NCBI RefSeq assembly: GCF_034313965.1
Contig: NZ_JAVIWQ010000002.1
Coordinates: 3,038,001-3,102,000, forward strand
DNA: 64,000 nucleotides
DNA from: Herbaspirillum sp. RTI4
Lineage (GTDB): Bacteria; Pseudomonadota; Gammaproteobacteria; Burkholderiales; Burkholderiaceae_D
Reading direction: 5' to 3'
In this document: positions 11,919 to 53,284 of the stretch, piece by piece
Layout of the letters: each line of letters begins with the position of its first letter
How positions within the stretch are numbered: position 1 is the first letter of the stretch
Notes under the pieces: generated by a model
Told to the model about the DNA's origin: nothing
The model's database searches: none
What the model saw: only the letters and a program-made list of their open reading frames with translations
Made by a program: the position numbers and the translations under genes

Positions 11919-12048
11919 GGTCGGAAAAGTCCAAAAGTGAAGAGACTCATTCTACTCCTCGTCCCTCCGGGACGGCCCGGGAAGCGGCCGAAGCACGGCG
12001 CTGCAATTTAATTCCTGACGCGCCTGCTGCGACAGCGCGCGGCACTGC

Positions 12049-12054
12049 TATAAT
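12049..12054 (+). promoter_or_regulatory. -10 box of tRNA-Leu(UAA)
   Basis: A consensus TATAAT 40 nt upstream of the tRNA-Leu 5' end, followed by a C-rich run. The -35 region is poor (GCTGCG at 17 bp). The preceding 11919-12048 stretch holds no gene. Confidence 0.5.
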
Positions 12055-12093
12055 GCCCCCCTTACAAATGCAGCAGTTGCAAACGTGTACTAC

Positions 12094-12434
12094 GCCCGAG
12101 TGGTGAAATCGGTAGACACAAGGGACTTAAAGCAATTTGAGCCCTCCGGAGGAAACTCCAGAGGTGACGCCCGTCAAATTCGGTGAAACCCCTGGATGCC
12201 ACAAGCATCCGAGACAACGCCGAGCCAAGCCCCCGTTCCGCAAGGCACGAGGGAAGGTGTAGAGAGCAGACGGCGGGCACCTACGGCAAAGCGGTCATAC
12301 GCAGCGCTACGGTGAAGGCGTGCTCCAGACCACGAACATTTTTTCTTTTTGAAAAACTGGCGGCGAAAGCCGAAGTGGTAAGAAAATCCCTCGACCTAAC
12401 AGTCGTGCCGGTTCAAGTCCGGCCTCGGGCACCA
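12094..12434 (+). tRNA. tRNA-Leu(UAA), split by a group I intron
   Basis: The 5' exon (12094-12128) runs from acceptor GCCCGAG through the D arm to AGGGACTT, ending at U34. The 3' exon (12383-12434) begins AAAATCCCT, continues through a long class II variable arm (CGAC...GTCG) and GGTTCAAGTCC, and ends CTCGGGC, A, CCA. Joined, they give an 87-nt class II tRNA with anticodon loop CTTAAAA, anticodon UAA. The split is after the first anticodon base, the classical position for group I introns in this tRNA. The 3' 17 bases also form one copy of the prophage att repeat. Confidence 0.95.
12129..12382 (+). ncRNA. Group I self-splicing intron (IC3-like) in tRNA-Leu
   Basis: A 254-nt intron between U34 and A35. 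Its core strings match the Azoarcus tRNA-Ile intron as I know it: GTCAAATTCGGTGAAACC (12173-12190), ACAACGCCGAGCCAAGC (12214-12230), GAAGGTGTAGAGA (12253-12265), AGACGGC (12268-12274) and CACCTACGGCAAA (12278-12290). The 5' exon end ACTT can pair with GAG of the internal guide near 12139, with the required U-G pair at the splice site. A GNRA hairpin CGGC-GAAA-GCCG (12361-12372) fits P9. The last base is G (omega-G). No ORF or homing nuclease is inside, so mobility would depend on outside factors. Confidence 0.93.
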
Positions 12435-12436
12435 AT
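12418..12436 (+). repeat. attL core (19-bp direct repeat)
   Basis: TCCGGCCTCGGGCACCAAT, comprising the 3' end of the tRNA-Leu T arm and acceptor plus two bases. It is identical to 53223-53241. The phage copy supplies the same tRNA 3' end, so the tRNA stays intact after integration. Confidence 0.95.
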
Positions 12437-12546: not shown

Positions 12547-13485
12547 ATGGCCTATATACGAAAATACCGAGATAAGTGGCGCGCAGAAGTGCAGCGCCAC
12601 GGTTTTCGCGTGACGCACGTCACCGAAACAAAACGCGAGGCGCAAGCCTGGGCGCTCAAGAAAGAAGCTGAACTGGACACGCTGCAAGGCAGCGGGGGTA
12701 AAACCCTAGGCGATGCCGTTGAGCATTACAAGAAGACCGTCAGCGTCACGAAGCGCAATCCCGAATGGGAAGCACGGCGCTTCGATTCCATGCTTGCCCA
12801 CTTCGGCTATGCCACCAGGCTGGCGGATATAGATAGCGCAGTCATGGGGGTATGGCGTGACAAGCGACTGGAAACCGTTTCCGGTTCCACCGTCTTACGC
12901 GAAGCGAATCTATTACGCCACCTGTTCAGCCTGGCCGTGGATGAATGGCGCTGGCTGGATCGCAATCCCTTCAAAGGGGTGCGTCTCCCCGCCGAAAACG
13001 AAGCCCGATTCCAGCGCTGGCGCTGGCAACAGATCAAGCGTGTTTTGCGTGCTGGCCAGCGATCAGGTGGCAAGATAGGCGAGATGACGCACGCGTTTCA
13101 CATATCACTGCGTACTGCCATGCGGATGTCGGAAGTGCTGAACGCCCCTGAAGGTTATGATCCCGCACGCCAGGTGGTTGTACTTCCCCGCACGAAGACA
13201 GGCGGCCGTGAAGAAGTACCCGTCGGCCGGATCGCTGCGAAGCTACTCGCCTCCACGGTCTTTACTGTTACCCCAAGCGTGGGGAGCGTGTTGTTTTCTA
13301 AGCTTTGCCGCCAGCAACTAATTAAAGACCTGACGTTTCACGATGCACGCGCTACCGCGTTGACGCTACTGGCGCGCAAAGTGGACGTGATGGTTCTCGC
13401 CCGGATCAGCCGACACAAAGATATTAGCTTGCTGCACCGGGTGTATTACCGAGAATCGTCGGACGAGATCGCCGCGAAGTTATGA
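12547..13485 (+). CDS. int: Tyrosine recombinase, phage integrase
   Basis: A 312-aa site-specific recombinase that inserts the phage into the tRNA-Leu 3' end. The N-terminal part is a SAM-like core-binding domain (about 50-140). The catalytic domain shows R193 (TAMRMSE), K217 (RTKTG), H265 and R268 (HDAR), H290 (ISRH) and tyrosine 300 or 301 (VYYRES). The protein starts 110 bp from attL and reads into the prophage. Its 3' end overlaps the convergent holin-like gene by 6 bp. Confidence 0.95.
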   Translation: MAYIRKYRDKWRAEVQRHGFRVTHVTETKREAQAWALKKEAELDTLQGSGGKTLGDAVEHYKKTVSVTKRNPEWEARRFDSMLAHFGYATRLADIDSAVMGVWRDKRLETVSGSTVLREANLLRHLFSLAVDEWRWLDRNPFKGVRLPAENEARFQRWRWQQIKRVLRAGQRSGGKIGEMTHAFHISLRTAMRMSEVLNAPEGYDPARQVVVLPRTKTGGREEVPVGRIAAKLLASTVFTVTPSVGSVLFSKLCRQQLIKDLTFHDARATALTLLARKVDVMVLARISRHKDISLLHRVYYRESSDEIAAKL

Positions 13486-53222: not shown

Positions 53223-53241
53223 TCCGGCCTCGGGCACCAAT
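53223..53241 (+). repeat. attR core (19-bp direct repeat)
   Basis: An exact copy of TCCGGCCTCGGGCACCAAT at 12418-12436. It marks the right edge of the prophage and is followed by the original tRNA-Leu terminator. Confidence 0.95.
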
Positions 53242-53244
53242 TTG

Positions 53245-53284
53245 AAAGCCGTCTCTGTTTAAACATAGAGGCGGCTTTTTTTTT
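53245..53284 (+). terminator. Bidirectional terminator, originally of tRNA-Leu
   Basis: AAAGCCG-T-CTCT against AGAG-G-CGGCTTT with a GTTTAAAC-like loop, followed by nine T on the plus strand and a shorter T-rich run on the minus strand. It lies 4 nt after attR. Without the prophage it would directly follow the tRNA 3' end, and it also faces the end of the hydrolase gene at 53292. Confidence 0.8.

Follow-up and report, generated by a model that had tools for sequence, protein, structure and literature searches.

The window analysed here, a stretch of 64,000 nucleotides from Herbaspirillum sp. RTI4, contains a tRNA-Leu(UAA) gene that is divided by a group I intron and occupied at its 3' end by a prophage. 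This locus raises the question of how the intron came to lie in this gene, and whether intron and prophage have anything to do with each other.

The tRNA-Leu(UAA) gene and its group I intron

When introns were allowed, ARAGORN identified positions 12094-12434 of the forward strand as a tRNA-Leu(taa) gene interrupted after position 35. The 5' exon (12094-12128) has U34 as its final base, the intron (12129-12382) is 254 nt long, a size at which no ORF is expected, and the 3' exon (12383-12434) includes the CCA. Joining of the exons gave an 87-mer that ARAGORN again read as tRNA-Leu(taa), in agreement with the first-pass annotation, which had described a perfect class II tRNA-Leu. The tRNA-finder search suggested there was successful with introns allowed, but the default ARAGORN run did not call a gene at 12094-12434. 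A match to the Rfam model Intron_gpI (RF00028), also proposed there as a check, was obtained with 35.3 bits (E 1.8e-7), yet this score does not reach the curated gathering cut-off of 50 bits. Therefore, a default Rfam scan misses the intron at 12129-12382. Four of seven cmscan matches in other tRNA-Leu or group I loci were likewise not above the cut-off, and two of the five intron matches in those loci scored 49.8 or more.

The fold was analyzed in an alignment of 99 introns that excludes seven long-branch tRNA-Leu rows, all tRNA-Leu(CAA) rows and the tRNA-Arg intron of the window's genome. The 54 proposed group I pairs had standard pairing in 91.9% of the cells, and changes on both sides were observed at 30 of them. 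P7 was paired in 99.6% of the cells, its third and fourth pairs alternating between two types (GAGCA/TGCTC and GACTA/TAGTC). The weakest helices were the P1 extension (72%) and the outer P2 (79%). The P3b register as proposed was not the best one; sliding it by +3 columns resulted in 100% pairing. All 99 introns end with G and have GAG within their initial 30 nt, and U34, which precedes the 5' splice site, faces a G. The intron class of the window has a group I P3-P9 core with P7 and conserved pairing. The Rfam match and the covariation among the 99 relatives support the earlier assignment of a group I intron in tRNA-Leu(UAA), and by resemblance the window intron is probably of the IC3 type. 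A T-rich run (TTTTTTCTTTTT) was seen at 12340-12356 in the P9 region; among the close relatives printed, only the window intron has it.

A whole-genome tRNA scan returned 49 tRNAs. Other leucine genes found, as class II genes read with ARAGORN, were those for CAA, CAG (two), TAG and GAG. A second group I match in the genome, at G000:C2:3312340-3312609 (L003), lies in a gene reading as tRNA-Arg(CCU) and is also under the Rfam cut-off (28.6 bits). Neither the scan nor ARAGORN revealed another tRNA-Leu(UAA) gene in the genome, consistent with the sole copy assumed before. TTA codons were present in four of the six long window ORFs checked, with 0 to 4 per ORF. Since a second tRNA-Leu(UAA) was not found, the transcript of this gene must splice for UUA to be read, and splicing of the pre-tRNA in the cell is thus probable. 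Judged from its sequence, the locus is most likely a functional tRNA-Leu(UAA) gene, with a group I ribozyme dividing its anticodon loop after U34.

The position of the intron had been regarded as unusual for a betaproteobacterium, a view that had to be given up. An intron-spanning match was found in 10 of 60 genomes of the window's family, and an Intron_gpI match in 23 of 200 genomes of its order. One genome per species was scanned with an exact 3' splice junction pattern of the tRNA-Leu intron, which gave at least 119 stretches with the same junction, at least 100 of which parse as tRNA-Leu(UAA) with an intron below 400 nt. The junction matches listed span Alpha-, Beta- and Gammaproteobacteria, Acidobacteria and Bdellovibrionota. 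Nineteen stretches do not parse; nine of these are tRNA-Leu(CAA) introns, and two others (L118, L153) lie in coding sequence and probably match by chance. At 254 nt the window intron is longer than most of the parsed relatives (195-247 nt). A gammaproteobacterial tRNA-Leu(UAA) intron has reportedly been described before (Vepritskiy, 2002). The proteobacterial and cyanobacterial tRNA-Leu(UAA) introns share with the window the gene, the place after U34 and the group I core. Cyanobacterial group I introns in this gene are known (PMC4476775). A query with an approximate Anabaena tRNA-Leu intron sequence gave no match against plasmids.

Further introns were noted in these searches. The tRNA-Leu(CAA) group I introns (L088, L091, L121, L127, L151, L152, L163, L173, L176) follow a 5' exon that ends with C34, and the splice-site pair would be C-G in place of the usual U-G. 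Large Mycetohabitans plasmids (H9-H17) hold sequence resembling the tRNA-Leu intron, with 67-68% identity and 98% of the query covered. Ten viral contigs (L050, L051, L052, L058, L059, L060, L063, L065, L066, L068) have tRNA-Leu(UAA) introns of 200-204 nt, and in three others (L062, L064, L070) the intron-bearing tRNA has a short variable region. According to a review (PMC3984707), the phage introns known by 2014 were all in protein genes.

The prophage at the 3' end of the tRNA gene

The prophage (about 40.8 kb, 12418-53241) was delimited by att repeats and phage gene families. Its attL core of 19 bp (12418-12436) starts 35 nt beyond the 3' splice site, within the 3' exon, and is repeated exactly in the attR core (53223-53241), both read on the forward strand. 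The attachment site named in the first-pass annotation was thereby corroborated. A tyrosine integrase of 312 aa is encoded at 12547-13485 on the forward strand (PHROG 1, E 3.6e-34; Pfam PF00589), and the families detected besides integrase were terminase, portal-like head-tail adaptor, major head (capsid), tail, endolysin, repressor and DNA polymerase.

The core includes the final 17 bases of the tRNA, which are identical in attL and attR. Thus integration leaves the tRNA sequence unaltered, and the phage-supplied 3' end, to which importance had been attached, makes no difference to the tRNA. What integration does change is the position of the terminator. No terminator-like site was found between the tRNA and the integrase gene of the lysogen (shuffles gave a mean of 1.2). 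The terminator-like site of the tRNA gene is located at the far end of the prophage (53244-53279, forward strand), displaced 40.8 kb from the tRNA; a similar hairpin directly follows the tRNA in relatives such as L021. An effect of integration on the ribozyme fold, raised before as a question, was not seen in prediction: in a nested model the pair probabilities of P4, P5, P6a and P9 were equal within 0.01 with either 3' flank. The acceptor stem had a pair probability of 0.98 in the lysogen and 0.81 in the empty site. P3, P7 and P8 had low values (0.07-0.09) in every context, because the nested model has no pseudoknots.

A related integrase adjoins intron-bearing tRNA-Leu at seven other loci (L053, L054, L056, L067, L069, L095, L023), and in G254, a genome of the same genus, an integrase with 76% identity adjoins an intronless tRNA-Leu. 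Similar integrases beside both kinds of gene argue that the intron is irrelevant to the phage, and the combination of prophage and intron, earlier taken as special, is not so. The window prophage is ordinary. Like other temperate phages that integrate in the 3' end of a tRNA gene, it has a short core, here 19 bp, and restores the tRNA; we saw no difference. Taken as a whole, the earlier reading of this locus was partly supported.

Gene replacement in the genus and Tn4371-like ICEs

The gene that neighbours the tRNA, encoding a hydrolase, is retained in 32 of 34 genus genomes, the window included. Eight members (L233-L237, L243, L245, L253) have the tRNA-Leu on the opposite strand relative to it. 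An intronless tRNA-Leu(UAA) was read in 30 of the 33 other genomes (G277, G257 and G274 gave no reading), and these genes represent three exon types (23, 4 and 3). Among the 33 relatives, 30 of them read, the window is the sole intron-bearing member seen. Its exons were identical at 73/93 and 74/93 positions to two alleles of the first native type, and at 66/87 and 74/87 to the other two types. The values rose to 85/87 with the intron-bearing gene of Glaciimonas (L021), and to 85/87 and 84/87 with those of G012 and G053; the G012 intron is the same as that in the Glaciimonas record L182. Upstream, a -10-like box (CTGCTATAATGC, 12045-12056, forward strand) has been retained from the native locus, the same 12 bases being found upstream of tRNA-Leu in 14 aligned genus loci. 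The terminator behind attR resembles the ICE-type terminator directly behind the tRNA in L021. Because the exons match Glaciimonas and not the native alleles, the tRNA body was replaced while the native promoter was kept. At the level of sequence, these comparisons show that the window gene is not native to the genus, and that tRNA body, intron and terminator replaced an intronless gene in place.

Intron-bearing tRNA-Leu(UAA) genes are also carried by Tn4371-like ICEs. These elements insert at a 9-bp core (CTTAAAATC) in the host's tRNA-Leu(UAA) anticodon loop, and the host gene is split. The gene carried by the ICE starts approximately 150-200 bp inside one end (298 bp in L183, whose sequence includes a stretch of N). 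Its intron interrupts the same core after the third of the nine bases (CTT|AAAATC), and none of 23 ICE-borne tRNA genes contains the core intact. Comparison of the named loci, all against all, revealed long shared stretches around the 3' splice site, reaching 0.2-0.5 kb upstream and 5-7 kb downstream of it. The betaproteobacterial Eoetvoesiella locus (L128) is 99.6-99.9% identical over 5.7-5.9 kb to loci of the gammaproteobacterial Lysobacterales and Dokdonella (L179, L177). Genes for TrbI, CagX, VirB8, TrbL and a TraG-like ATPase follow downstream on the other strand.

We corroborated the split of the host gene by locating its halves. In 23 of 100 parsed loci among the matches listed, the tRNA-Leu 5' half of the respective host was present upstream; it ends at the core and is followed by a conserved end of the TTGTCAAGTC type. 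An exact 5' half was detected in 12 of 25 chosen genomes and, by coordinates, adjoins the intron-bearing gene in 10 of the 12. The 3' half gave a match in 8 of 14 genomes searched, a single one in seven of them. These single 3' halves are preceded by the conserved ICE end and the same nine bases, and the core is present at both ends in seven genomes. Where both host halves are on one contig (four genomes), they are 51, 66, 41 and 63 kb apart. The joined halves were read as tRNA-Leu(taa) in 7/7 genomes, the halves alone in none, and neither half pattern revealed a further intact gene in the seven split-gene genomes. Beside the right end, all seven genomes have a tyrosine integrase that shares 78-100% identity with the L297 enzyme. 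The element ends show features of the Tn4371 family, namely the att repeat of ICEKKS102Tn4677, a tyrosine integrase beside one end, and trb genes beside the opposite one. In Lysobacter defluvii (G308), an intronless 5' half lies 39 kb from the intron-bearing gene, and its 3' half was not found by pattern.

The ICE end alone was also used as a query, against 399 genomes from the order to which the window belongs and 398 from that of Stenotrophomonas. It was found in nine genomes (3 and 6, respectively), all of which carry an intron-bearing tRNA-Leu(UAA) inside; G286 was known beforehand, L302 is on the contig of L138, L304 resembles L179, and in L303 and L306, with a variant 3' splice site, the gene was read by eye. 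A recognisable tRNA-Leu 5' half surrounds the end in eight of the nine, L308 being doubtful.

Some elements are arranged differently. In Sphingobium (L166) the ICE end is in a different gene and the native tRNA is intact. Two Cupriavidus megaplasmids (L309, L310) have a similar ICE end outside any tRNA, and their intron-bearing tRNA is truncated, with the 3' part lost. The trbI region is common to 1492 plasmid records, none of which covers 80% of the query, and the best 15 start behind the tRNA unit; the tRNA is thus not a general companion of trb genes. All three observations fit a role of the supplied tRNA in rescuing the host. In L138, L182, L183 and L187 the tRNA terminator runs into TTTTTCAT, which is given in published work as Tn4371's own att repeat; it is possibly a relic of the event that brought element and tRNA together.

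The ICEs described here resemble ICEKKS102Tn4677 and ICEbphKF708 of the Tn4371 family. According to the passages available (PMC9960961, PMC11448139, PMC6563109), the att repeat of the latter two is GATTTTAAG, the reverse complement of CTTAAAATC, and by published description they likewise have trb transfer genes and a size of about 62 kb. The same passages place the site upstream of a Gly-tRNA, or at a tRNA-Leu 3' end, and, unlike what we observed, mention neither a split anticodon loop nor an intron-bearing tRNA. Genomic islands that target tRNA genes share the tyrosine integrase, the tRNA target and its splitting, but as outlined in published work (PMC4383910) they restore the tRNA gene from matching end sequence, whereas the ICEs here supply a whole second gene with an intron. 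In the portions of the open-licence literature accessible to us, no paper was found that links Tn4371-type ICEs to group I introns, and the system of split anticodon loop and intron-bearing replacement was not found in print.

Probable descent of the window gene and a possible role of the intron

In the intron tree the window falls within a group of 10 rows with support 89/94, which is below the starred level of the tool, the bootstrap not being settled. The group consists of five ICE-borne copies, G053, Glaciimonas L182, L149, L172 (Herminiimonas) and the window. In G053 and L182 a decayed host 5' half is still present upstream of the intron-bearing gene. A Castellaniella copy (L144) belongs to the ICE clade and has no ICE; the sequence just upstream of it resembles, by eye, the spacer of the L166 ICE, which suggests that it was captured from an ICE. 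In the window's genome we found neither a remnant of the native tRNA half nor a close ICE integrase (remote integrases only, the best at 28% identity), and there is no ICE spacer beside the tRNA. Neither an ICE integrase nor a split tRNA thus marks an ICE in this genome, and for this reason descent from an ICE is the favoured route rather than a demonstrated one.

We consider it fairly probable that the locus as a whole is a working split gene, replaced in place, most likely from a Tn4371-like ICE lineage, and later joined by an ordinary phage. Recombination of an ICE at the anticodon-loop core would split the host tRNA-Leu(UAA) gene, while the ICE would supply, a short way inside one end, an intron-bearing tRNA-Leu(UAA). 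With its core divided by the intron, the supplied gene would not itself be a target of the ICE. Loss of the ICE would leave the intron-bearing gene as the sole copy, and in a later step a temperate phage of the ordinary kind would have integrated in the tRNA 3' end.

The gene may instead have been acquired from another Oxalobacteraceae-like bacterium by simple horizontal transfer or gene conversion, without an ICE. Such a route would look the same in the window, and the missing ICE traces in its genome as well as the non-ICE chromosomal copies that group with it (L172 Herminiimonas, L149) are in line with it. We nevertheless regard it as unlikely, given that five of the 10 rows are ICE-borne and decayed split halves accompany two others. 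Much less probable still is that the intron homes alone into intronless tRNA-Leu genes, by reverse splicing or a homing endonuclease, as the exons of the window changed together with the intron and 254 nt are too small for an endonuclease gene. Homing by an intron-borne endonuclease in the window was rejected for this lack of room. What speaks for homing is the huge phage L049 (LR756511.1, 408669-410453), whose tRNA-Leu(UAA) intron, about 700 nt long, contains an HNH-like ORF (556-1140).

The role of the intron on the ICE is a separate matter. As the intron divides the core, the supplied gene lacks the ICE target, and splicing should restore the core in the RNA; the ICE-borne gene would thus be immune to its own element. 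The ICE may instead bring its extra tRNA for rescue only, the intron being a passenger without protective role, and tRNA-Leu introns are indeed common on chromosomes without any ICE. This appears doubtful to us, however, as the intron was found in 9/9 copies located by the ICE end and in 23/23 ICE copies located by pattern among the matches listed. The core is absent from all 23 of the latter, and an intronless replacement would hold the ICE's own target, so that the intron may matter. We therefore lean towards the reading that the self-splicing intron is an immunity device of a conjugative element, its core split in DNA and healed in RNA, and that the window gene is a leftover after decay of the ICE.

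The usual view of mobile elements entering tRNA genes is that they mend their targets by means of matching ends. Here, by contrast, an essential tRNA gene would be destroyed and replaced by a spliced version that the element cannot attack. If this is true, a host whose ICE has decayed would keep the intron, and its gene would stay protected against new ICE insertions. The window gene would be such a leftover, whose other end was later used by a phage. This would give bacterial tRNA group I introns a selectable role, and would explain their patchy spread between beta- and gammaproteobacteria.
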